Part shown: piece by piece, positions 35,137-46,858 of the stretch
Layout of the letters: every line of letters begins with the position of its first letter
Position numbering within the stretch: position 1 is the first letter of the stretch
Origin: Hyphomonadaceae bacterium
GTDB taxonomy: Bacteria; Pseudomonadota; Alphaproteobacteria; Caulobacterales; Hyphomonadaceae
NCBI GenBank assembly: GCA_947474455.1
Contig: CANJIL010000013.1
Coordinates: 1-61,416 of the forward strand
Direction of reading: 5' to 3'
Length of the DNA stretch: 61,416 bases
Made by a program: the position numbers and the translations under genes
Notes under the pieces: model-generated
Databases searched by the model: none
What the model saw: only the letters and a program-made list of their open reading frames with translations
Told to the model about the DNA's origin: nothing

Positions 35137-36039
35137 TCATCGCTGCACGTCGGCTTTCCTGCCAGCCCAGGTCTTCACGAACTCCTTGAGTTCCGGGTCA
35201 TCTTTCCGCGGCAGGACAAGCAGTAGCCGGACCAGCAGATCGCCTGGCGTGGGCCGTGTCTGCACACCCTTCCCCCGGAGCTTCAGGAGATCACCGGAGT
35301 TCGACCCCGGCGGAACCGAAAGCGTCACAGCGCCCGATGGCGTCTGCACCGGAACTCTTCCACCCTCGACAGCTTCTGCGAGCGATATCCGAAGATCCAT
35401 TCGGATGTCGTCACCCTCGCGCTTGAACGCGGGATGCACTCCAACCGTGATTTCCACGAGCGCATCGCCTGCCGGACCACCGCCTGCGCCAGGAAGACCT
35501 TGTCCCTTGAGCCTCAGCGTCTGCCCCGAATTCAGCCCTGCGGGAATCGCAAGATCGAGCGACCGCCCGTCCGACATAGTCACGCGCCGACGTCCGCCAT
35601 TCACTGCATCGAGGAAGTCGACCTCCATGCGGTAGCGTACATCTTCGCCGCGCTGCTGCCCGAAGCCACGAGCCCCGCCGCCCCGGCTGAACAATCCATC
35701 GAACAGATCTTCAAACACGTCGCCGCGCTGGCCCCGTGTCCTCGCGCCTGCACTAGCGCCAGCTCCAGCTCCTGCAAATCCACCAAACCCGCCCGGCTGG
35801 AAGTGCGGCCGCTCGTTGCCGTCCGCGTCTATCTCGCCGCGGTCAAACCGTCCACGCTGAGTCGCATCAGTCAGCAGGTTGAAAGCTGCCGTAACGCGCT
35901 TGAAGCGCTCCTCAGTCGCCTTGTCGTTCGGGCGCACGTCCGGGTGCAGCTCTTTGGCGAGCTTCCGGTACGCCTTCTTTATGTCCTCGGCGCTGGAGGG
36001 TTTTGGCACTCCAAGCGCCGCATAGGGATCCCAGCTCAA
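35137..36039 (-). CDS. DnaJ-class co-chaperone, CbpA type
   Basis: A 300-residue J-domain protein. The J domain (residues 4-68) has the HPD motif in LHPDVRPND; a Gly/Phe/Ala-rich linker follows (FGGFAGAGAGASAGA), then the two C-terminal substrate-binding domains (GRRRVTMSDGRSLDLAIPAG, LRLKGQGLPGAGGGPAGD). The cysteine zinc-finger of true DnaJ is missing, which makes it CbpA-like. It is separated by about 100 bp from the PepSY gene. Immediately upstream is the g9 GTA remnant. Confidence 0.9.
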   Translation of the reverse strand: MSWDPYAALGVPKPSSAEDIKKAYRKLAKELHPDVRPNDKATEERFKRVTAAFNLLTDATQRGRFDRGEIDADGNERPHFQPGGFGGFAGAGAGASAGARTRGQRGDVFEDLFDGLFSRGGGARGFGQQRGEDVRYRMEVDFLDAVNGGRRRVTMSDGRSLDLAIPAGLNSGQTLRLKGQGLPGAGGGPAGDALVEITVGVHPAFKREGDDIRMDLRISLAEAVEGGRVPVQTPSGAVTLSVPPGSNSGDLLKLRGKGVQTRPTPGDLLVRLLLVLPRKDDPELKEFVKTWAGRKADVQR

Positions 36040-36066
36040 ATGCCGACCCTTGCTGAATGTGTAGCC

Positions 36067-36354
36067 CTAGCGTGGGGCCTCTCTCCCACCTAAGACAAGC
36101 GGGAAGATGGGGATATTGAGGCGAAGCGCTATTTTCCTGTCTGTCACGGGGCAGGAATTGTTAGTTGAAGCCGACCCGGTCGCCTGGTTCGCCATCTGAT
36201 CCAGGTTGCGGCGCCTCGATGAGCGCGCTCCCCCGATGACGCCTGAACTGAGGCTGATCGTCCGCGCGCGAATTCCCGCCACGGTTACGAATGCCTCCCG
36301 CGCGCCTCCATCGCCGATTGTGATCAGCACATCGCAGCCTCGCTGCCCCGCCAT
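36067..36354 (-). pseudogene. Remnant of GTA g9 (TP901-1-type major tail protein), N-terminus only
   Basis: The first ~40 codons read MAGQRGCDVLITIGDGG and FVTVAGIRARTISLSSG, the start of the GTA/TP901-1 major tail tube protein (RcGTA g9). After GVI the match ends and the rest of the frame to the stop at 36067 is unlike any tail protein, so about 100 codons of the gene are missing. An alternative frame over the same stretch ends LIEAPQPGSDGEPGDRVGFN before a stop. This is the most downstream piece of the GTA fossil. The assignment rests on my recollection of the family consensus. Confidence 0.7.
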
Positions 36355-36378
36355 CGGTCCACTCCTTCTCGATATGAA

Positions 36379-36407
36379 TTGACACGCAACCAGATGGTTG
36401 CATTATG
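36379..36407 (+). promoter_or_regulatory. Core promoter with ArsR operator as its spacer
   Basis: TTGACA (36379-36384) and ATTATG (36402-36407) are exactly 17 bp apart, the ideal -35/-10 arrangement. The spacer holds the inverted repeat GCAACC-AGAT-GGTTGC (36386-36401). Binding of the ArsR protein encoded directly downstream would block polymerase, giving autoregulation. The predicted transcription start, about 7 bp after the -10 box, falls on the ATG at 36414, so the mRNA would be leaderless. Confidence 0.72.
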
Positions 36408-36413
36408 AAATGC

Positions 36414-36722
36414 ATGGACCAGGTGTTTCGGGCTTTGGCGGACGAAAGCCGGCGAACCCTTCTCGATAGCCTCAGCGCGAGAAGCGCTCAGACGCTGAAC
36501 GAGCTGTGCTTAGGCCTTTCGATGACGCGTCAGGCGGTCTCGAAACACCTGGCGATACTTGAGGAAGCCAACCTCGTCGCCACCGTGAAGCGCGGCCGCG
36601 AGAAACTGCACTATCTCAACCCGGTTCCGATCGCCGAAATCGCAAACCGATGGATCCGCAAATTCGAACGCCACAGGGTCGACGCCTTCGTGGACCTGAA
36701 GAAGCAACTGGAGTCAGAATGA
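36414..36722 (+). CDS. ArsR-family repressor of the SRPBCC operon
   Basis: A 102-residue winged-helix repressor. The start MDQVFRALADESRRTLLDSL is the usual first helix of ArsR proteins that pair with SRPBCC (AHSA1) genes; recognition helix LSMTRQAVSKHLAILEEANLV is clear. No metal-binding cysteine motif (ELCVCDL) is present: the sequence has LNELCLGLS, so the signal is probably not a metal. I chose ATG 36414, because the upstream ATG at 36405 lies inside the -10 box. The stop overlaps the next gene (ATGA), giving translational coupling. It stands between GTA remnant g9 and the SRPBCC genes. Confidence 0.88.
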   Translation: MDQVFRALADESRRTLLDSLSARSAQTLNELCLGLSMTRQAVSKHLAILEEANLVATVKRGREKLHYLNPVPIAEIANRWIRKFERHRVDAFVDLKKQLESE

Positions 36723-37588
36723 CTTCCGCTACCGATCTTCCCGTCCGGCCGAAAAATGTCGCCGTGATCTTCATCGCCGCATCAGCCGAGCGCGTCTGGA
36801 GCGCGCTGACCGATCCCGCAGACCAGGCCACCTATTTCGGCGGCAAGACAGAAATCGGCCAACGAGGCGAGCGCTGGATACGTCACACTGCCGACAACGG
36901 CAAAACCCGCGCCACGATCAACGAATACCATGCCCGCGACTGGGGCGATGACTATGGTCATGCCGCCGCCCAAGGCTGGACCGAGCTCCTGTCCGGCCTC
37001 AAGACCCTCGCGAAACCGGCACCCCCCTCTGCCGCCGCTATTCCAGAAAGAAGCAGAATGCCCGCTCCGGACCTCTGCGCCGAGCCCAACCCCGACCGCC
37101 TATCCGTGATTTACATCGCCGCGCGTCCCCAGAAGCTCTGGGATCCCCTAACGGACGGAATAACTGCGCGACCTTGGCGGGCCCGCACACATAAGGATTC
37201 ATCTTTCGAGGTTGGCGCCCCAATGGTCTGGCGGGGCAATGGGAAAGTCGACCGGCGTGGCGAAATCTTCGAATGCGACCTCCCGCACCGTCCGGTCTGT
37301 ACCTCCCACGTCCAAGGCCCCGGTGCGGTCCACGACGAAGGCCCGTCAATCGTCACCTATGACATCTCGCGCAGCGGCGACATGGCCATGCTCGTCGTTA
37401 CCCACGGCGGCTGCCCGAAGAACTCTCTGTCGCACGAAGGCGTCGAGGGCGGCTGGCCCGCCATCCTGTCATCGCTCAAGACAGTCATCGAAACCGGTCA
37501 AATGCCCGCCTTCAAGGACAGGGGCGGAGCAGAGTTCAGGGCAGCACAAGAAAAACAGCTTCGCGAACACGGGGCAGGCAAACAATGA
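36719..37588 (+). CDS. Double SRPBCC (AHSA1-like) protein, first domain shortened
   Basis: A 289-residue protein with two START/Bet v1-like (SRPBCC) domains in one chain. Domain 1 (residues 10-100) has the start NVAVIFIAASAERVWSALTD and the end GWTELLSGLKTLAK, but lacks the central strands, about 50 residues. Domain 2 (residues 125-270) is complete: VIYIAARPQKLWDPLTD, GEIFECDLPHRPVCT, GGWPAILSSLKTVIETG. The simplest reading is two neighbouring genes fused through a deletion in the first. Ligand and activity are unknown. It overlaps the ArsR gene and the next SRPBCC gene by four bases each. Confidence 0.82.
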   Translation: MTSATDLPVRPKNVAVIFIAASAERVWSALTDPADQATYFGGKTEIGQRGERWIRHTADNGKTRATINEYHARDWGDDYGHAAAQGWTELLSGLKTLAKPAPPSAAAIPERSRMPAPDLCAEPNPDRLSVIYIAARPQKLWDPLTDGITARPWRARTHKDSSFEVGAPMVWRGNGKVDRRGEIFECDLPHRPVCTSHVQGPGAVHDEGPSIVTYDISRSGDMAMLVVTHGGCPKNSLSHEGVEGGWPAILSSLKTVIETGQMPAFKDRGGAEFRAAQEKQLREHGAGKQ

Positions 37589-38046
37589 GCGGCACGAAGT
37601 TTGTCTACGTAACCTACATCCGCACCACGCCGAGCAAACTCTGGCGCGCTCTCATCGAGCCCGAATTCACGCGGCGGTATTGGGCAGGCACCTACCAGAC
37701 GTCCGACTGGAAGGTCGGATCCGACTGGCAAATCATGATCCCCGATGGCCGGGTTGGCGACAGCGGAAAAGTCCTGGAGTTTGATCCGCCTCGCCGTTTG
37801 GCCATCAGCTGGCGCAACGAGTTCATGCCGGAACTGAAAGCAGAAGGCTATTCGATATGCACCTACGAACTCGAACCTGCGGGTACTGCGGTTAAACTGA
37901 CGCTCACCCACGAGATTGACATCCCGAACGCAAAGACAATTGCAGCGGTAAGCCGGGGATGGCCGCACTTCCTCGCAAGCCTCAAGAGCCTGCTCGAAAC
38001 TGGCGAGTCGCTTGTCGAAAGCCGCACATGGCCTGAAGGGATCTGA
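37585..38046 (+). CDS. SRPBCC (AHSA1-like) domain protein
   Basis: A 153-residue single-domain START-like protein: FVYVTYIRTTPSKLWRALIE, YWAGTYQTSDWKVGSDWQI, GKVLEFDPPRRLAISWRNEF, and the C-terminal helix GWPHFLASLKSLLETGE. Its start overlaps the double-domain gene (ATGA) and it is followed by another SRPBCC gene after 2 bp, so all are one operon under the ArsR repressor. These proteins bind hydrophobic small molecules or act as co-chaperone-like folds; nothing here points to a specific ligand. Intact. Confidence 0.88.
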   Translation: MSGTKFVYVTYIRTTPSKLWRALIEPEFTRRYWAGTYQTSDWKVGSDWQIMIPDGRVGDSGKVLEFDPPRRLAISWRNEFMPELKAEGYSICTYELEPAGTAVKLTLTHEIDIPNAKTIAAVSRGWPHFLASLKSLLETGESLVESRTWPEGI

Positions 38047-38048
38047 AC

Positions 38049-38486
38049 GTGTCTTCGAAACCAACAGCCGTCGCGATCCAGACTTTCCTTGTTTCTCCCG
38101 CACGCGTCTACGACGCCATCCTCGAACCGGACATGATTTCGCGTTTCATGTTCGGGCCTTTGTTGCGCAACGAGGAAATTCTCCATATCCGCAACGAACC
38201 GCGTATCGGCGGGAAATTCTCGTACAAGGTGCGCCGTGGCGAGCATGCGATAGACCATGTCGGCACATTCTTGGAGCTCGATCGCCCGCGCCGCATTGTC
38301 TTCACGTGGATCGTCGCCGGAGAAAGCGACGAAGACGGCTCCGTGGTCTCGATCGACATCTCGCCTACGGACGAGGGCTGCTCGGTACGTTTTTCGCATG
38401 AAATGCCGCCCGAATGGGCCGATTTCATCGACCGCTCACGCGACGCCTGGAAGAAGATGCTCTCTGTCCTTGCGACACTGCTCTGA
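38049..38486 (+). CDS. SRPBCC (AHSA1-like) domain protein, GTG start
   Basis: A 145-residue START-like protein beginning with GTG two bases after the previous stop. Motifs: AIQTFLVSPARVYDAILEPD, MISRFMFGPL, VGTFLELDRPRRIVFTWIV and RFSHEMPPEWADFIDRSRDA. The late Trp-Lys-Lys-Met helix closes the fold. It is the last gene of the ArsR operon and runs towards the antiporter pseudogene on the other strand, 9 bp apart. Sequence is clearly divergent from its two neighbours, so they are old paralogues, not a recent duplication. Confidence 0.86.
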   Translation: MSSKPTAVAIQTFLVSPARVYDAILEPDMISRFMFGPLLRNEEILHIRNEPRIGGKFSYKVRRGEHAIDHVGTFLELDRPRRIVFTWIVAGESDEDGSVVSIDISPTDEGCSVRFSHEMPPEWADFIDRSRDAWKKMLSVLATLL

Positions 38487-38495
38487 CCGGCGCCC

Positions 38496-40175
38496 TCAGG
38501 CCGAAGAGACGATGCGGCGCGGAATGACCGCAGCCGCATTCTCGATCATCGCATCGGCGATCTCCTGCTCACCGGACACGATCAGGTCTGCGCCGAAGCT
38601 GCGCAGATGCTCAACCTCCGCGTCCGAGTGCGCGCGCGCATAGACTTTGATTTTCGGGTTGAGCGTGCGCGCCAGCTCAACAATGCGCCCAGCCTCGAAC
38701 CCGTTCGGAACCGTCACGAACATCACGTCCGCCTGCGCGATGCCAGCCCGCTCCATCGTGTCCTGCGAGATCGCGTTGCCTGCAATGACGGCAACACCGC
38801 TAGAATTCAGAAGTTCGACAAGATCCTCCCGATCCTCGATCACGGAATAGGTTGCCTGCGCCTCATCCAGCGCCTTGCCGATCAACGATCCGACGCGTCC
38901 ATATCCGACAAGCACAACCCGCTTCGGCGGGGCTTGCGTCGGAGCTGCCAGCCGCACGGCCCCGACCGCCTGAGCCTTCTTGCCGATGCGATCGAAGATC
39001 GCAAACATCAATGGGCTCAGCACGATCGAGATGATCGCTCCGCCCAGGATCAGATCGTTGGCCTCTTCCGGCAACAGCCCGAACTGCAGGCCCAGTCCCG
39101 CAAGAATGAACGAGAACTCGCCGATCTGCGCCCGGCTCGCCGTAACCGTCGCTGTCGTTTCGCGCGATTGCCCGAATAGTTTGAGCAAGCCCGCACTGAT
39201 CAATGACCTCAAAACCAGAATAATCCCGACGGTCGCGATCAGCGGCCACGGATTGCGCAGAAGGATCATGGGATCGAAAAGCATCCCCACCGATACGAAG
39301 AACAGCACCGCGAATGCATCGCGGAGCGGCAGTGTTTCGTTTGCCGCCTGCTGCGAGAGTTCGCTTTCAGCCATGATCAAGCCGGCGAATAATGCGCCCA
39401 GCGCCACCGAAATGTCGAAGAAAGCGGACGCCGCATACGCAACGCCAAGCGCGATCGCCAGAACGGCAAGCCGGAAAAGCTCTCGCGACCCCATGTGAAC
39501 GACGCGATGCAGCAGCCAGGACACCACGCGCTTGCCCGCTAGCAGCATGATCAAAGCGAACAGCGCAACCTTCCCGAGCGTAAGCGCCACCGCAAGCCCG
39601 GCATCCTGCATTTGCAGCACGCTGATGGCTTCGCCATTCACCACCTGCGTACGGATGTGCACCCAAGTCGGCAGCAGCACCATCGCTACCACCATCGCCA
39701 GGTCTTCCACGACCAGCCAGCCGACGGTGAGCTTTCCGCGCTCGGTCTGCATCAGCCGCCGCTCCTGCAGGCTGCGCAGCGCCACCACCGTCGATCAAAC
39801 AGACAGCGCCAGGCCCAGCAAGATCCCGGCATCAATGCTCCACCCCAACGCCAGCGCAAATCCCACCCCGGCCGCCGTCGCGAACATGATCTGCAGCAAG
39901 GCTACCGGCACGGCCACGGCGCGCACAGACAGCAAGTCACTCGGCGAAAAATGCAGTCCCACCCCGAACATCAGCAGGATCACGCCGACCTCCGCGACTT
40001 CAGCAGCCAGTCCTGCATCAGCCGTGAAACCCGGCGTGAACGGGCCAATTACAACGCCCGCAACCAAATATCCGGCCAGCGGCGACAGCTTGAGCCGGGT
40101 AGCCACCGCCCCGAACACAAAGGCGAGCCCAAAACCAATCGAGAGAAGGGCGATCAGTGGAGAGTCATGCGGCAC
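38496..40175 (-). pseudogene. KefB/YbaL-type cation:proton antiporter interrupted by a TGA
   Basis: Together the two in-frame parts make 559 codons of a CPA2 antiporter with a TrkA-N domain. The N-terminal part (ATG 40175) has GYLVAGVVIGPFTPGF and ends GILLGLALSV; a single TGA at 39795-39797 follows; the frame then continues STVVALRSLQERR in helix order. The second part holds the antiporter core and the Rossmann domain VVLVGYGRVGSLIGKALDE with the ligand-gate C-terminus. Relatives usually have Ala at the stop position (LSVAST, from memory). The rest looks intact, so the loss is recent, or the TGA is an error. A GTG after the stop could re-start a shortened protein lacking the first helices. 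Confidence 0.85.
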
Positions 40176-40378
40176 CGATCGGGGGACTTTCTGTGCGAGT
40201 GAATCCGCGAATCAAACCTTCGCAGATCGTGGATTCATAATGCAAGAAGATCGTTCTCTCGCATGCGGATTTGGCCTTCTGTTCGCTTGCTGGTCCACCA
40301 TTTCGTGAAATCGCGAGCGCCGTCCCAATCCGGTCTTAACGATCATATGAGCAATGTCGGTAGATATCGGGGTCTGAC

Positions 40379-40861
40379 ATGCGTTCTTATAAACCCCGGC
40401 GCCTTGGCATAGTCTCCGGCGCCCTCTTGCTGCTGATCTTGGCCGGTCTTCCGGTGCTGCTCGGCCTCACCCGGCCGCAGCCCGGCGATGCTCCGGGCGT
40501 TGTTCTGGTCTACACCCACGGCCTGTCCTCTCTTGGCTCTACGGGTCTGGTTGCGCTCGGCCTCGCCGTGATCTTTGGCGCCTGGCTGCTGGCCAAACAG
40601 CGCAAGGAAGTGAACCGCAAATACCTGAGCAGAAGCGCTCGCCGCTGGCACAACACGATCGCTGCCCTGCGCACGCTGGCCATCACTGTGGGCGGCGCCA
40701 GCCTCATCGCAGGCAGCCTTTCCGGCCTCTATATCGCTATGATGCAGGCACGCCCGGACCTCTACGACCAGCTTGCGCTTCCGTTCGTCACCGGCCAGCT
40801 GGCCGTGATCTGCCTGGTTGGCGGCGGCGGCCTCTACGCGGCCGGTCGCCTAGGCGGCTAG
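40379..40861 (+). CDS. Small four-helix membrane protein of unknown function
   Basis: A 160-residue protein with four likely membrane helices: about residues 10-30 (LGIVSGALLLLILAGLPVLL), 47-68 (GSTGLVALGLAVIFGAWLLA), 95-117 (LAITVGGASLIAGSLSGLYI) and 134-156 (FVTGQLAVICLVGGGGLYAA). A basic cytoplasmic loop (KQRKEVNRKYLSRSARR) lies between helices 2 and 3. A GGGG precedes the ATG at fair distance. I do not recognise a family. It precedes the OPT transporter by 61 bp in the same direction and could be co-transcribed. Between it and the antiporter start there are 203 bp without a gene. Confidence 0.68.
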   Translation: MRSYKPRRLGIVSGALLLLILAGLPVLLGLTRPQPGDAPGVVLVYTHGLSSLGSTGLVALGLAVIFGAWLLAKQRKEVNRKYLSRSARRWHNTIAALRTLAITVGGASLIAGSLSGLYIAMMQARPDLYDQLALPFVTGQLAVICLVGGGGLYAAGRLGG

Positions 40862-40922
40862 CGCCACGGATTGCCCTCAGCCTGATTGTCGGCTTACCTC
40901 GGCTCAAAGCTGAGGGGCAGAC

Positions 40923-42917
40923 ATGACCGACTTCGCCGCGCCGACGAAACGCATCGAGTTGACGCTGCGTGCGTTGGTGCTTGGCTGCCTGCTCGCCATA
41001 ATCTTCACGGCGGCGAACGTATACCTGGGCCTGCAGGTCGGCCTGACCTTCGCCTCGTCTATCCCCGCAGCGGTCATCTCCATGGCCATACTAAGGGGGT
41101 TCCGTACCTCGACGATCTGGGAGAACATGACGGTCCAGACCGTCGCTTCTGTCGGCGGCGCGATCTCCTCGATCATTTTCGTTCTCCCAGCCTTGGTCAT
41201 GGTGGGCTGGTGGAAGAGCTTCCCGTTCTGGCAATCCTTCCTGATCTGCGCCTTCGGCGGCATCCTCGGCGTCACCTTCTCGATTCCCTTGCGTCGCGCC
41301 CTCGTTATCAATGCCGCGCTGCCATACCCGGAAGGCGTCGCCGCGGCCGAGGTGCTCAAAGTAGGTTCGCGTGGCGCTGAGCAGACCGAATCCGCCGTCC
41401 GCGAGAACAAGGCCGGCCTGCTGGTTGTGATCTGCTCCTCCATCGCATCAGCGCTTTATGCCTGGCTGGTCGCGGCCCGTGTTTTCATTGGTGAAGCCTC
41501 GACCTTCTTCCGCCTGCCCGCTGCCCTCGGCGGCGGCGCAACCGGCATCAGCTTTGGGATGCAGTTCGCTTTGCTGGGCGCCGGTCACCTCGTAGGCCTT
41601 GCCGTCGGCATCGCCATGCTCGTCGGTTTCATCATCGCTTGGGCCGTGTGCGTGCCCGTACTGACCTCCCTGCAAATGACGCCCGGTGAAGCCGAGGCGG
41701 CCGCCATCGACGTTTGGCGCAATCAGGTCCGCTTCATGGGCGCCGGCTCGATCGGCGTCGCGGCGATCTGGACGTTGCTAAAGCTCATCGGCCCTCTTGT
41801 CGGCGGCGTCACCTCCGCCCTGGCCGCTCAACGCAAGCGGGCCTCAAGTGAGGCCCTCGACATTACCGAACAGGACATCCCAATCACGCTGGTGAGCTTC
41901 ATCTCGCTAGGCGTACTTGCAGCAATCGCCATCTTGCTCTGGAGCTTCACTGCCGGCACCTCGCTCGCCTCTTCCGCCCCGGTGCTGGTCATCGGCGGCC
42001 TGATCTACGTCGTCCTGATCGGCTTGGTCGTCGCTTCGGTTTGCGGCTATATGGCCGGCCTCATCGGCTCGTCCAACAGCCCTGTCTCGGGCGTCGGAAT
42101 TCTCGCCATCGTCATCGCATCGCTGCTGATGGTCGGCGCCATGCAGTTGATGGGCATCCGGGCCGATCCCTCGATTGTAGCCTTCGCGCTGTTGATCACG
42201 GCCGTCGTATTCGCCGTAGCGGTTATCTCGAACGACAATCTACAGGATCTAAAGACAGGTCAGCTCGTTGCCGCCACGCCCTGGCGTCAGCAGACTGCGC
42301 TGATCGTCGGCGTGCTTGCCGGCGCACTTGTCATTCCGTTTGTTCTCGACCTCCTCAACAACGCGAATGGTTTCGTGGGCGGCCCGCCTCCGACGGCTAC
42401 AAACACCGCGCCACTCTCGGCCCCGCAAGCGACCCTCATCGCGGCCCTCGCCAAAGGCGTGATCGAAGGCGGCCTGCGCTGGGACCTGATCGGCATTGGC
42501 GCCGCCATCGGCGTCGGCGTCATCCTTGTCGACGAAGTCCTAGTCCGTACCTCCGGCGGGAAGCGCAAGCTCCCACCACTGGCGGTTGGCATCGGCATCT
42601 ACTTGCCGATGGCCATTACGACGACGGTCTTCGCCGGAGCCTTAATTGGCGCTGTCTACAACAAGTGGGTATCTGGCAAATCCTATGGCGAGGTCGCCAA
42701 GCGGCTCGGCATCCTGCTCGCTTCCGGCATGATTGTCGGTGAGAGCCTCTTCGGCGTCTTCACCGCAGGCGTTGTCGCCGCCTCCGGCAACGGCGACGTC
42801 CTCGCACTCGTTCCGGCCGACTCTGGCTGGCCCGCCATGCTCGCTGCGGTTGTCGGCCTAGCGGCCGCGACCTACGGCCTCTACGCGTGGATCAGGTTGA
42901 AAGCCGGCAAGGTCTAG
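40923..42917 (+). CDS. OPT-family oligopeptide transporter
   Basis: A 664-residue multi-helix inner-membrane transporter of the OPT superfamily (bacterial, peptide-type). The start RIELTLRALVLGCLLAIIFT, the NVYLGLQVGLTFASSIPAAV segment, and the loop LRRALVINAALPYPEGVAAAEV are characteristic; repeated glycine-rich helices follow to the C-terminus. It would import short peptides or metal chelates with protons. Its stop codon overlaps, on the opposite strand, the stop of the GTA g8 remnant by three bases, so no spacer exists between them. Confidence 0.92.
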   Translation: MTDFAAPTKRIELTLRALVLGCLLAIIFTAANVYLGLQVGLTFASSIPAAVISMAILRGFRTSTIWENMTVQTVASVGGAISSIIFVLPALVMVGWWKSFPFWQSFLICAFGGILGVTFSIPLRRALVINAALPYPEGVAAAEVLKVGSRGAEQTESAVRENKAGLLVVICSSIASALYAWLVAARVFIGEASTFFRLPAALGGGATGISFGMQFALLGAGHLVGLAVGIAMLVGFIIAWAVCVPVLTSLQMTPGEAEAAAIDVWRNQVRFMGAGSIGVAAIWTLLKLIGPLVGGVTSALAAQRKRASSEALDITEQDIPITLVSFISLGVLAAIAILLWSFTAGTSLASSAPVLVIGGLIYVVLIGLVVASVCGYMAGLIGSSNSPVSGVGILAIVIASLLMVGAMQLMGIRADPSIVAFALLITAVVFAVAVISNDNLQDLKTGQLVAATPWRQQTALIVGVLAGALVIPFVLDLLNNANGFVGGPPPTATNTAPLSAPQATLIAALAKGVIEGGLRWDLIGIGAAIGVGVILVDEVLVRTSGGKRKLPPLAVGIGIYLPMAITTTVFAGALIGAVYNKWVSGKSYGEVAKRLGILLASGMIVGESLFGVFTAGVVAASGNGDVLALVPADSGWPAMLAAVVGLAAATYGLYAWIRLKAGKV

Positions 42918-43410
42918 ACTGGCTCCACGACAGCCTTCAGACGCAGCAGCGCGCGCCAGAGACCACCCCCCTGCCGCGCCGCACCCGAGAACAGCGGAAG
43001 CAGCAACACACCGCCATTCGTTCATCTCTCGATCTGCTTCCATCAAAGCCGCGCGCGCGGCCGCCAGCGCCGTCTTCGCCATCCCTCCGCGCAGAAACGC
43101 TGACCAGATCGATCCGACGCTCGCTTCCACATCGACGCTGCCGCACGGCTCGCTCAGATGCCCCCCAGATTTCCAGATACCGATAGGCTGGCGAGGGCGC
43201 ACCGATCTCCCGCACGCGAACGGGATCACCCAGAGCCGCCCTTACTTCCGCATCCGCGCTGATCGCCCTTCGCAACGCGCCCTCCAGCGCGCTTTCCGCA
43301 CCGCTCACAGGCGCATGCGACGCCAAGGGGAAATCAGCCGCGCAACATCCCTTCGCCCCGGCCAGACTCAACAGTTCGGCTGACGGCGCCGCCAGCGTCG
43401 TCAAAATCAG
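42914..43410 (-). pseudogene. Remnant of GTA g6 start fused to frameshifted g8 (DUF3168)
   Basis: Reading from 43410 the frame gives LTTLAAPSAELLSLAGAK, the opening of GTA g6 (phiE125 gp8-like adaptor). After ~25 codons it passes into g8, a DUF3168 tail terminator: AISADAEVRAALGDPVR and PAYRYLEIW. From there the g8 sequence hops between frames: SEPCGSVDVEAS in a second, RIDLVSVSARRDG back in the first, MAKTALAAARAALMEA in the second, and WRALLRLKAVVEPV with the TAG stop (42914-42916) in the third. Most of g6 and all of g7 are deleted. At least four frame changes make function impossible. Confidence 0.78.
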
Positions 43411-43526
43411 TCCTCTTTTCCTTTTGAACCACGTTCGGACTTGAGCGCCCGCGCACAGCCTCGCGGCCACCGGACGGATCAAGCGTCAGCCGCCGCAATC
43501 GCGGTCAGAGTGTCCTGCCTGTAAGA

Positions 43527-43910
43527 TCAGTCGACTTTCGGGTCACGACGGCCGCCACTGGCGTCATCGATCTTGAAGCGCCACAGCCCATCATTGCCCC
43601 GCCTCAGCACCTCCGCCGAAACGCCATCCGACTTGATCCATCCCTCTGGCTCCAGCATCTCCCACGCAAGCCGGCAGAGCGCGCTGTCATCCGCGACAAA
43701 CACATGAGCGTAAGTTCCGCGCAGCTTCATCCCGGTTTCCAGAAATCCCTGCACCGCCGCCCGGATCTGTTCCAGCCCCACCGCCTTCTGCTCGCCATCG
43801 AACGTGAACACGGCATCGGGCTCGTAGAGAGAAATCAGCCCCTCCAAATCACCTTCATTGAATCGCGCGATGAAGGCTTCCGCCATCAGCTCCGGTGACG
43901 ACACGCCCAT
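43527..43910 (-). CDS. SnoaL/NTF2-like protein
   Basis: A 127-residue protein of the NTF2 superfamily (SnoaL/SgcJ-like): AEAFIARFNEGDLEGLISLYEPDAVF at the start, IRAAVQGFLETGMKL in the middle and LWRFKIDDASG at the end. Proteins of this fold bind small hydrophobic substrates or serve as isomerases; catalytic residues are not fixed in the family. The reading frame is intact, in contrast with the GTA fragments on both sides (capsid upstream, g6/g8 downstream), so it is a later insertion or a gene preserved by selection. Confidence 0.85.
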   Translation of the reverse strand: MGVSSPELMAEAFIARFNEGDLEGLISLYEPDAVFTFDGEQKAVGLEQIRAAVQGFLETGMKLRGTYAHVFVADDSALCRLAWEMLEPEGWIKSDGVSAEVLRRGNDGLWRFKIDDASGGRRDPKVD

Positions 43911-44025
43911 CGTCCACTCCCTCAGAAGATCGGGCGCATAATCGCGATGAAGACCGGAAGATCAAGTCCAACGGCGCCGGCAAGGCATGCCCGCCGGCGC
44001 CGCCGCCGAAATCGAGATGCGGCTG

Positions 44026-44567
44026 AAAAGCTGCGCACTTCATCACCGTGATCGCGCTAAAGTTCTGGATGCCGCCGCCCGCACGCTTCGTCGCATAGAA
44101 CAGAAGCCGATCTTGTCCCACGCATAGCTCGCATCGGCGATCCTGTCATAGCTGAGAAGGCCTTGGGGCCTGTTCAACCCATCACCCGTCGCCAACGCAG
44201 CGGCCCCCTGCGCCGAAAAGCTTGCCTCCACTTCGTCCGCCAGAGGCTCGTCGACGTCAGCATAGGCGTCATCGAGCAGTGTCTACGTCGCCGCCAGCAT
44301 CGCATAAAGCTCCGCCACCGGAGATTCGAGCAGATGCGCCGTTGTCTCCGAGCAAGACCCCGTTTCGGCCGCCCGCGCTGAAGCGGCGCCAAGGCTGACC
44401 GGCTTCCTGAAGACCGTCTTCGATGTCTGGCGCACCGTCGCGATCTGGCGCATTGGAGACGAAGCCATCAGGCTCTGGTCAATCAGCCTATCCAGCTCAG
44501 GTGGCGCCACCTAGCCGCCATACGCCCCGGCGCCCATGTTCACCGAATTCAGCTCCAGAAGCGCCAT
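44026..44567 (-). pseudogene. Remnant of GTA g5 (HK97-type major capsid protein)
   Basis: One reading frame from ATG 44567 gives MALLELNSVNMGAGAYGG, then TAG at 44511-44513 where the capsid has Tyr in GGY. It continues PPELDRLIDQSLMASSPM, QIATVRQTS, VFRKPVSLG and AELYAMLAAT, then a second TAG at 44283-44285 where Gln is expected, and TLLDDAYADVDEPLADEVEA, TGDGLNRPQGLLSYDRIA, DASYAWDKIGF. There the frame changes and about 120 codons are missing; the C-terminus LLFYATKRAGGGIQNFSAI follows. These blocks match the GTA capsid gene that I know from Rhodobacter and Caulobacter. Two stops plus a deletion make it non-functional. The capsid N-terminal scaffold part is also gone. Confidence 0.85.
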
Positions 44568-44624
44568 GCGCTGTCATCGCCCTTGCGATCATCCAGCCGC
44601 CGCGAAGCCATGCAGCAAGAAAAC

Positions 44625-44934
44625 TCAAAGCCTCAGCCGGGCCGCCAGCGGCATCAGCGGCGTCAACAGCTGCACCTCGCGTAACTCGATTTCCGGCGGC
44701 TCCTGCCCCCCGGCGGCACACCCGGCGACAGCGCCGCCTGTGCCGCCGCCGTCGCATCTTTCACCAGCCCGCGCCCTTCCTCTCGCGTCGTGGTCCCTCG
44801 CCCCGCCGCCTGCCCGCCAACCTGGCTCAGCAGCATCCATGCCTCCGCGCCGGCGTTCGCGTGAAGACGCCGGCCAGGTCCTCGACCCCGACAAACGATG
44901 CATAGCCCTCGATTACGAAGGATTCTGATCTCAT
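44625..44934 (-). pseudogene. Remnant of GTA g4 (prohead protease)
   Basis: From ATG 44934 (preceded by an AGGCGGAG ribosome site) the frame reads SFVIEGYASFVGVEDLAG, the start of HK97-type prohead protease. It then stops; a second frame continues MLLSQVGGQAAGRGTTTREE and GRGLVKDATAAAQAA, and a third ends EIELREVQLLTPLMP just before the stop, matching the protease C-terminus (ELxEVSLVTxPM). The central catalytic portion is largely deleted. About 310 bp remain of a gene usually above 500 bp. Confidence 0.75.
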
Positions 44935-44984
44935 CTCCGCCTCTTTCGATGTACACGATTGGCATGACAGCTCGGCCGCGGAAC

Positions 44985-45200
44985 GATCCGCTGCCGAAAC
45001 TCAGCCGCCAGCGATCCAGCTGTGCCGCCGTCAGCTCGCGTTGCACTTCGACTCTCGCCATCCGCACCGCCATTTCGGCTTGGGCCGCGCATCTCAACCT
45101 CTTTAAGCGGCTCTCCGGTCGCGGGCGCCCAGGCGAATACGCCAGCGGATTCAATCACGATTGGAAGAATGAGCGTCCACGCGATTTTTTTGTCGATCAT
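44985..45200 (-). pseudogene. Remnant of GTA g3.5 (small head-formation protein)
   Basis: ATG 45200 starts MIDKKIAWTLILPIVIESAG, a membrane-like helix identical in style to the small g3.5 gene found between portal and protease in alphaproteobacterial GTAs. The coiled-coil second half, MARVEVQRELTAAQLDR, is in another frame, so there is one frameshift out and probably one back near LAAEFRQRIV. The gene is followed at once by the g4 remnant, as in intact clusters. Confidence 0.65.
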
Positions 45201-45274
45201 TCGAAAGTCCTCTGCTAGAAAGACATCACTCTCGGGCTGGGCGGCGCGTAGTGTGCGTGTTCGGGAGTTTCCAT

Positions 45275-45973
45275 TTGAAGCGCGCGGATGTCGTAAGCGT
45301 TGGTCGCCTTTTTTCCGGCGCCGCGCGATTTCGATGCGGTCCTGCACGCCCCGGTTTTCACTGGGGCTTGCCGCAGATCGCCCAGGTCGTCGTTGATCTC
45401 GAAACCGCGGCCCGTGATTCACTGGACGAAGAAGATGTACCCGAGGAGCGTTTCTACCTCGGCGTGATCACTGTTTGCCCGCTGCAGCGTGGCGTCTCCA
45501 CTTTGCTGGACGGACAGCAACGCCTCGTCGTCCTGTCGATGTTTCTCGCTTTCGCACGCGACGGACTGCCAGGCGCCGGCGAACGCAGCCGCATGGAGCG
45601 CATGCTGATGCGCCGCTTCCCCGGCCAGCTGCCTGAGCCACGCTTGCGTCTCACGCCGGAAGATCATGCCTGGTTCGCGCATTTCATCCTGCCGCCCGGC
45701 GCGACACGCCGACTGCCGGCCACTGCGCCGATTGGCTCCCCGAAGGAACTGCTGCTCGCCGCACGCTTCATGGAGCACGCGTTCGCGAACTATTCCGTCG
45801 CCGACCTACGCAACATGGTCGATTTTCTGACCCACCACACTGCGGTCGTCTGCTCCATCGCGGAGCCACGTCCGGCGTTCGCGCCAACCTCGTCTTCACC
45901 CTCGCAGCAGATGTGGGGCGACGAGCCTTTCCCGGCCCCCGCTTCAGCGCGCTACCGCGTCGCCGCGGAATAA
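45275..45973 (+). CDS. Truncated DUF262 (GmrSD-type) protein
   Basis: A 232-residue frame from a TTG at 45275 (GGGAG seven bases upstream; a GTG at 45251 is the alternative). It has the N-terminal DUF262 pattern: LFSGAARFRCGPARPGFHWG in place of the usual VPxYQRxFxW, then FYLGVITVC and the nucleotide-site motif LLDGQQRLVVLSMFLAFARD. GmrSD and related anti-phage nucleases are 500-700 residues; here the protein stops after the ParB-like part, with a low-complexity tail (AFAPTSSSPSQQMWG). It may be a decayed defence gene or a short homologue. It lies between GTA g3 and g3.5 remnants on the opposite strand. Confidence 0.6.
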   Translation: MKRADVVSVGRLFSGAARFRCGPARPGFHWGLPQIAQVVVDLETAARDSLDEEDVPEERFYLGVITVCPLQRGVSTLLDGQQRLVVLSMFLAFARDGLPGAGERSRMERMLMRRFPGQLPEPRLRLTPEDHAWFAHFILPPGATRRLPATAPIGSPKELLLAARFMEHAFANYSVADLRNMVDFLTHHTAVVCSIAEPRPAFAPTSSSPSQQMWGDEPFPAPASARYRVAAE

Positions 45974-46037
45974 TTCCTCAATTTCACGACCCCTACGACG
46001 TGCCCGCTCACGGTGAGCGACCAACAGGAGTCTATCT

Positions 46038-46103
46038 ATGGTGCCGCGAATTCTTATCGCCGTCGTCGTCCTGGGTCTGATGAGCCTTAGCGTTCTCGCC
46101 TGA
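46038..46103 (+). CDS. Possible 21-residue hydrophobic peptide
   Basis: ATG at 46038, seven bases after GGAG, encodes MVPRILIAVVVLGLMSLSVL plus Ala, one membrane helix with a basic N-terminus, and stops at TGA 46101-46103. It could be a small membrane protein, or a toxin-like or leader peptide; it is too short for family evidence. The surrounding 45974-46386 holds nothing else I can support. Confidence 0.35.
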   Translation: MVPRILIAVVVLGLMSLSVLA

Positions 46104-46386
46104 CCCCCCCCGCACGGTTGAAATCCCGATCCACGGTCCCAGATGATGCTTGGGCCACTGGAGCCTCTATCATTTTCAATGGAGTCACCCATGGGCTGCT
46201 TGGCTACATCCACCGATCCCTGGTCGGTCGCGCAGGAGGGCGAGCTCCGCTGCCTCGCACGCGCCAACACCACGCCCGCCTCTCGCGAACGCCGGAACAG
46301 GTTTTCGAGCGCGCCCACGAACTAGAGCTTACTCTGAAGCGGCCTGCACACGGCGAAAAGTCCAACGCCGGTTGGAATCTTTAGGC

Positions 46387-46858
46387 CTACACACCCGTCA
46401 TCCGCTTCTCCGGAATCGTGAGAAAGCTGGCTGCCTCGATCCGCGCCCACTGCTCCGCGCTTTCCGCTTGGAAAGCCGGCACACCTTCCAGATCCGCAGC
46501 AATTTCGCCGCCTACACGATCCAGTAGCCAACCTGAGATCTCGCGCGCCGTCTTGTTGTCGAGTGGCGACACCACTCACCGCGAGATGGCCATGGAAATT
46601 CTCCAGCAGATCCGGCCCCGCCTGCTCGATGTTCGGTTGCACGATCAACCTGGCCAGCGCATCCTTCCTCTCGGCCGCCCTGAACCCCACGCTCGCAGCT
46701 GCTTCCGCAATCATACGCGCACAGCGATACGCCACGACATTGCGCTCGAACCCTTTGCGCACGAGCTGCCCCATGCCGGACCACTGCGCCGCCCGCAGAT
46801 CCGAAACTGCGGTCAGCGGCGCAGCGGATGTCGCCTCGCGCTTACTCAACAGTCTCAT
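46387..46858 (-). pseudogene. Remnant of GTA g3 (portal protein)
   Basis: ATG 46858 begins MRLLSKREATSAAPL and the frame continues GFERNVVAYRCARMIAEAAA and VQPNIEQAGPDLLENFHGHL, all characteristic of the start of the GTA portal protein. Near 46565-46575 the frame changes and the C-terminal portal part follows directly: ISGWLLDRVGGEIAADLEG and WARIEAASFLTIPEKR, ending at the stop 46387. About 700 bp of the middle are missing relative to a ~1.2-kb gene. This is the first (most upstream) recognised piece of the fossil. From 46859 to 47233 I find no terminase and no other gene. Confidence 0.82.

Follow-up and report, generated by a model that had tools for sequence, protein, structure and literature searches.

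A fossil gene transfer agent cluster in Hyphomonadaceae and its relation to the loss of ComEC

Two questions about gene transfer agents (GTAs) remain open: why a suicidal DNA-transfer device persists in Alphaproteobacteria, and whether cells that do not produce it cheat. Production of GTA particles kills the producing cell, and entry of GTA-borne DNA into a recipient needs ComEC, according to the accessible sections of PMC6209664 and PMC10883770, which cite Brimacombe 2015. Here we ask what a series of broken phage-like genes in a Hyphomonadaceae genome represents, and how its decay relates to the presence of ComEC in the family. The window analysed is the 61,416-nucleotide contig CANJIL010000013.1 of assembly GCA_947474455.1, which is the entire contig C13 of the genome referred to below as G000 (3.29 Mb in 103 contigs, 99.94% complete). 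Taken as a whole, we hold with high confidence that this locus preserves a real and fairly recent fossil RcGTA-type cluster, and infer that decay of the GTA was probably followed by loss of ComEC. With its many GTA fossils in graded states at a single site, the family offers natural replicates for both questions.

Pieces of a GTA cluster at a conserved site

On the minus strand, between positions 46858 and 36146, remains of g3, g3.5, g4, g5, g6, g8, g9 and g15 are colinear, with head and tail genes in g3 to g15 order. The initial annotation had recognised pieces of g3, g3.5, g4, g5, g8 and g9 in this order and strand, and all were recovered close to where it had placed them; its combined g6 and g8 block stood for g8, frameshifted in the region near 43 kb, with g6 reduced to a stub of about 20 codons. 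Pieces were placed by tblastn with the open cluster of congener G013 (loci L028 and L129) and others as queries, and lesions were mapped by DNA alignment against the sister species G003 and G012. Congeners reached through a match to the antiporter gene include G008 (Hyphomonadaceae bacterium UBA7672, assigned by NCBI to Hyphomonadaceae) and other metagenome-assembled genomes (MAGs). The fossil features are as follows.

46571..46858, minus strand: g3 portal, N-terminal piece (75% identity to residues 54-149 of the 417-residue portal open reading frame (ORF) of G012, E 1e-41)
46390..46590, minus strand: g3 portal, C-terminal piece (72% identity to residues 349-416 of the same ORF, E 8e-20)
45069..45221, minus strand: g3.5 fossil (59% identity to the g3.5 reading of G013, E 4e-14)
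44762..45012, minus strand: g4 prohead protease fossil in two frames (tblastn matches at 44839-45012, E 4e-7, and 44762-44836, E 3e-7; the intact relative is PF04586)
44029..44567, minus strand: g5 major capsid fossil, found by tblastn (44100-44567 at 75% identity, E 5e-61; 44029-44106, E 1e-5), NCBIfam, DNA alignment and PF05065
43359..43426, minus strand: g6 stub of about 20 codons (a 68-base match at 82% identity to where g6 begins in G003, L124 8346-8413, E 1e-12)
42940..43368, minus strand: g8 fossil, frameshifted and in two frames (E 7e-16; the intact relative is PF11367)
36235..36354, minus strand: g9 tail-tube fossil, first ~39 codons (63% identity to residues 2-39 of G013 g9, E 1e-9, match at 36235-36348)
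36227..36234, no strand: deletion junction (flanks map to 686 and 6867 of G012 locus L125)
~36146..36227, minus strand: g15 end, last ~27 codons (colinear with G012 L125 605-686; g15 of G012 ends at 605)

The largest lesion is a deletion of about 6.2 kb, which took most of g9, a g11-like ORF, g12, g13, g14 and nearly all of g15, joining codon ~39 of g9 to the final ~27 codons of g15; the g9 fossil retains its start codon and an upstream AAGGAG. About 0.6 kb is deleted from the middle of g3 (a gap relative to G003 L032 2961-3586), g5 has lost its N-terminus and a further ~360 bp internally, and ~0.48 kb of g6 is gone. Family profiles, which the initial annotation had proposed as a check, bear out the assignments: the open g3 piece alone matches Phage_portal PF04860 (E 4.8e-5), two open pieces of g5 exceed the NCBIfam major_cap_HK97 cut-off of 27.5 bits (28.9 and 32.9 bits), and g5 scores 75 bits against PF05065 with two TAG stops inside. 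In the open clusters of congeners, the head and tail-tube genes carry PF04860, PF04586, PF05065, PF05135/TIGR02215, PF11367 and PF06199, and g12 to g15 carry, in turn, PF09343; PF09356 with PF09931; PF00877; and PF13547 with PF13550 and PF23666.

These open congener clusters share gene order and families with RcGTA-type clusters, including the Caulobacter GTA: portal, S78 protease, HK97 capsid, gp6, gp8, tail tube, DUF2460, BR0599, NlpC/P60 and GTA_TIM. Among 14 control genomes, the GTA_TIM and DUF2460 models match Caulobacter vibrioides alone. Unlike RcGTA-type clusters, those of this genus are split by host genes, have g2 on another contig in seven congeners and hold a short ORF of ~100 codons between g9 and g12, and in G000 every remaining structural gene is broken. 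Chance is excluded as the source of the pieces, because they are colinear with open congener clusters, lie at the same site and have the same neighbouring genes.

Could the pieces instead derive from an unrelated HK97-type prophage? Many phages share the portal and capsid families, and the G013 capsid is matched by 437 of 50,697 phage records, but all 437 are less than 60% identical to it, compared with 75% between the fossil and the G003 capsid; the better match to an unrelated phage that the initial annotation had named as a refutation did not appear. In addition, the open clusters that congeners carry at this site hold GTA_TIM, Rcc01698_C and DUF2460 (three GTA-specific families found in this orthologous cluster and not in G000 itself), and the site beside a DnaJ-family gene is common to the genus and to G019. 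On identity, families and shared site we reject this explanation as very improbable. An intact GTA whose frameshifts and stops are assembly errors seems to us more improbable still, and we reject it too: the assembly is in 103 contigs and an antiporter inside the locus has a lone in-frame stop, but deletions of ~0.4 to ~6.2 kb relative to G003 and G012, together with a branch-specific rise in amino-acid change (below), are not base-calling faults, and neither g12 nor g15 occurs anywhere in the 99.94% complete genome. Whole-genome searches of G000 also returned no other portal, no terminase g2, no g15 GTA_TIM and no capsid besides the g5 fossil, and the intact copy elsewhere that would have undone the initial annotation was not found among the five genes searched (portal, g2, capsid, g12 and g15).

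Selection, relative age and repeated loss in the genus

A functional ancestor, as first proposed from the fragments, is supported by the congeners, because the ratio of nonsynonymous to synonymous divergence (dN/dS) for g3 and g5 between open clusters is 0.06 (G013-G008) and 0.11 (G003-G012); the site beside DnaJ is shared as expected of vertical inheritance under purifying selection. The decay is also visible in the substitutions. With five outgroups in turn (361-486 fossil codons, 1598-2681 control-gene codons), the G000 branch has a fossil-codon dN of 0.109-0.118, 2.4-4.2 times the 0.027-0.045 of the G003 branch, and dN of control genes is equal on both branches (0.037-0.044 for G000, 0.036-0.040 for G003). 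Unique changes in G000 versus G003 number 112 versus 31 in the fossils and 120 versus 116 in the controls (Fisher p 8e-8; the OPT transporter gene was excluded from this control as too few relatives cover it). Codon-position counts alone were not used, since the fraction in G011 (0.68) equals that of the fossil (0.66); such counts are unreliable on their own because sites where all other genomes agree favour conserved positions. Divided by dS, the excess of dN points to inactivation within about the final 10-15% of the G000 branch, counted from its split from G003 and G012; this is a relative age from a dS near saturation, and no absolute date follows. The record of loss that the initial annotation hoped to date is datable in relative terms only.

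A genus tree built on ten flanking proteins (4140 columns after removal of seven paralogous hits) groups G000 with G003 and G012 (support 100), which pair with support 98. All of g3, g4, g5, g6, g8, g9 and g12-g15 are open in G013, G008, G011 and G004. The cluster of G003 is open except for one stop in g15 (codon 740 of 1237), those of G012 and G007 are open up to contig breaks, and G005 has a portal cut short and no g15 found. Stops in g4 of G004, G008 and G012 and in g5 of G005 were not counted as lesions because they lie upstream of the conserved coding part.

The GTA is decayed in seven members of the genus (G000, G001, G006, G010, G009, G002 and G014). In G009 the portal has a stop at codon 316, the capsid has a 49-residue gap and g12-g14 are absent from the locus; in G002 and G014 the 14 kb that separates DnaJ from the antiporter is filled by other genes. 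The sisters G001 and G006 appear to have in common one g12-g15 deletion followed by private deletions. Breakpoints differ wherever they are visible (G000, G001/G006 and G009), and the genus tree implies five GTA inactivations, with G010 weakly placed (support 66 in the genus tree, 30 in the family tree).

The following course would account for the locus. In this genus the GTA already stood in several blocks with host genes between them, beside the DnaJ gene. After the split from G003 and G012, selection on the GTA of G000 ceased; a single deletion of ~6.2 kb removed the tail half, while the head genes were broken by stops, frameshifts and deletions of less than a kilobase. GTA losses would recur since particle production kills the cell, and inactivation would leave ComEC without its main substrate and under relaxed selection, until it too is lost. 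G000 would then represent a later stage, in which the GTA fossil is present and ComEC is not found.

Loss of ComEC among GTA-less lineages

No ComEC was found in G000. Within the genus, nine genomes whose GTA is open, unclear or partly decayed have ComEC (G003, G004, G005, G007, G008, G009, G011, G012 and G013), and the other six lack it (G000, G001, G002, G006, G010 and G014, G001 being only 78% complete). Across the family, GTA_TIM is matched in 64 of 105 genomes (53 of the 89 of high quality) and ComEC (PF03772) in 84 of 105 (73 of 89), absences of either being subject to MAG incompleteness. Among high-quality genomes ComEC is absent from 0 of 53 that bear the GTA and from 16 of 36 that do not (Fisher 4e-8, uncorrected for kinship); over all 105 the figures are 2 of 64 and 19 of 41.

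Events were placed on a family tree built from the DnaJ neighbourhood or other flanking loci, which were available for 78 of the 105 genomes (the other 27 are GTA-bearing except G035). After removal of G099, G101, G085 and G016 (<400 aligned residues) and of G005, 73 tips remained, with G007 scored as GTA-bearing (g9-g13 open, and g14 as far as the contig runs) and G098, where a 50-residue stub is left, as GTA-less. Under the assumption of loss without regain, we infer 24 GTA-loss clades and 13 ComEC-loss clades, and GTA loss is not the rarity that the initial annotation took it to be. Twelve of the 13 ComEC-loss clades fall inside GTA-less lineages, which account for 35% of the total length of the tree (p 3e-5); with high-quality tips only, nesting is 11 of 11 (p 3.7e-5), and it is unchanged after collapsing weak nodes or dropping G015. 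ComEC is scored positive in every tip of 12 of the 24 GTA-loss clades, or 11 without G114. Because of this nesting, and because 11-12 GTA-loss clades keep ComEC, GTA loss seems to precede ComEC loss.

The remains at the locus point the same way. GTA-less genomes without ComEC retain fewer GTA codons than those with it (p 0.014 for 9 vs 14 genomes; p 0.025 for 6 vs 11 loss clades), as expected if ComEC goes later. This comparison covers 23 genomes; a set that also held G073 and G081, which have little GTA-side sequence, gave p 0.007. Outside it stand the genus labelled g1 (other queries), G015, G085, G098, G099 and G123 (short GTA side), G016, G035, and G121 (no remains, ComEC-less). GTA fossils are common in the family. 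Partial g15 matches lie beside DnaJ in many GTA-less genomes of other genera (DnaJ loci L207-L257). The GTA-less G114, scored ComEC-positive from a short match, holds a ComEC pseudogene with internal deletions (L265 8818-10230), whose flanks match G089 gene for gene.

Two further accounts of the pattern have to be weighed. In one, a shared cause, for example general genome reduction or a change of habitat, would have removed both GTA and ComEC without either loss leading to the other; both are indeed absent in several genomes, and 10 of 16 high-quality ComEC-less genomes are no larger than 3.3 Mb. However, among GTA-less genomes those without and those with ComEC show no significant difference in size (p 0.18; 16 vs 19 of 20 genomes, G016 missing), on which ground genome reduction was set aside as the driver, and 11-12 GTA-loss clades keep ComEC, whereas the reverse is seen only in G024 within the tree and G080 outside it. 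We consider a common cause unlikely, if deserving of some weight. The accessible text of PMC10883770 suggests that lineages that lost the GTA may be cheaters, and they could be stable ones that still receive the particles of producers. The same 11-12 of 24 clades that keep ComEC would fit this, as would G009, whose GTA is decaying and which keeps an open ComEC frame of 757 aa, but in 12 of the 24 loss clades, that of G000 included, ComEC is gone from one or more members. Cheating would therefore often be a passing stage, and stable cheating appears to us a little less likely again than a common cause. That Hyphomonadaceae keep ComEC mainly for GTA-borne DNA, and that recurrent GTA loss starts a one-way path on which uptake dies later and cheaters are transient, is a proposal to which we give even chances. 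The nested loss of ComEC suggests the purpose of the uptake channel in these bacteria, and it predicts short-lived cheating.

Several observations weigh against a GTA fossil followed by loss of ComEC. The g-numbers were assigned from Pfam and NCBIfam families and the RcGTA gene order rather than from the RcGTA sequence; the g6 stub, with a protein score of 54, is the top of 573 window ORFs, but barely above background (next 51); and the GTA of this genus is known from its genes, with particle production a prediction. Neither a comEC site nor any remnant of one was located in G000. ComEC is unmatched in two genomes that bear the GTA, G024 (86% complete) and G080 (84% complete, 6% contaminated), and with G080 counted as a second outside loss the nesting becomes 12 of 14 (p 1.4e-4). 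Within the genus alone it is 4 of 4, at only p 0.024. In the family counts GTA-bearing means a GTA_TIM match only, some of the genes being split or short (G101 and G023), and G003, counted there, has the g15 stop; and the GTA-less group includes G005 and G016, both of unclear state.

Pseudogenisation and complete loss of GTAs in several alphaproteobacterial lineages are described in the available portions of PMC10883770 (Kogay et al. 2024). The decayed GTAs there are the same phenomenon, here resolved for one family into 24 inferred loss clades, with many remains at one syntenic site and ComEC loss nested within. That paper, in the parts at hand, also finds that the rates of comEC, comF and dprA covary with those of GTA genes, which likewise ties DNA-import genes to the GTA, but among GTA-bearing genomes; the present pattern concerns which genomes have or lack the genes, and the order in which these were lost. 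In the model of PMC6209664, as far as its accessible text describes it, GTA-less cells with DNA uptake can invade, and those without uptake lose the advantage; the nested losses say that uptake retained after GTA loss is often temporary. RcGTA-like clusters are given for 78% of Caulobacterales operational taxonomic units in the sections available of PMC6821227, and the main text of PMC12700997 on convergent losses in Caulobacterales, as available, contains neither 'gene transfer agent' nor 'GTA'. We recognised no report of comEC loss nested after GTA loss in the open-access literature, so far as its text was accessible. GTA pseudogenisation as such is already known.

Host genes within and around the cluster

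The gaps between the fossil pieces hold host genes, and the flanking genes examined around the fossil are host genes as well; an Rfam scan of the window gave no family above its cut-off.

45185..45970, plus strand: DUF262/GmrSD_N-like gene between g3 and g3.5, not part of the GTA (78% identity to G012; PF03235 E 1.3e-4, below cut-off)
43530..43961, minus strand: SnoaL-like host gene, open, between g5 and g6 (PF12680 1e-12; 65% identity to G003; shared by congeners)
40914..42914, plus strand: OPT transporter, host gene between g8 and g9 (PF03169 2e-99; common to G003, G004, G010 and G011)
38499..40199, minus strand: KefB-type antiporter between g8 and g9 (PF00999 and PF02254)
36378..38486, plus strand: host genes between the antiporter and g9, conserved in congeners, which from the sequence we take to be ArsR-like and AHSA1/SRPBCC-like
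35140..36054, minus strand: DnaJ-family gene, intact, adjoining the GTA 3' end in relatives (PF01556 and PF00226; matched in 103 of 105 family genomes)

The initial annotation had taken GTA genes to be contiguous. This does not hold in this genus, where open clusters also carry host genes between g3 and g3.5, g5 and g6, and g8 and g9, several of them the same as in G000. The wide gaps between fossil pieces, including the 6.5-kb gap between g8 and g9, are therefore mostly inherited rather than products of decay. Nor does g2 stand beside g3 in a contiguous cluster. In seven of the eight congeners that have g2, it lies on another contig (L189-L195); it is truly distant in G003, G004, G008 and G013, because the portal there is at least 18 kb from the upstream contig end, and the contig ends of G005, G011 and G012 are too near the portal to place it. 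It lies ~6 kb upstream of g3 in G009 and ~1 kb upstream in G019, which belongs to another genus. The GTA contig of G006 holds a 32-residue g2-like stub (E 2e-4, G006:C2:17247-17345).

At the locus g10 was not found in the genus. Where g10 and g11 would be expected, a conserved ORF of ~100 codons lies between g9 and g12 (L028 18241-18480), with the same ORF in G003, G004, G007, G008, G011 and G012; a very short tape-measure protein is one possible identity. The antiporter has a lone in-frame TGA (39797-39795) in a frame that is otherwise conserved, which marks either a recent pseudogene or a base error. The DUF262/GmrSD_N-like gene runs on the opposite strand within the GTA cluster, at the same place in nine congeners, and is a possible candidate for a defence gene lodged in the GTA.

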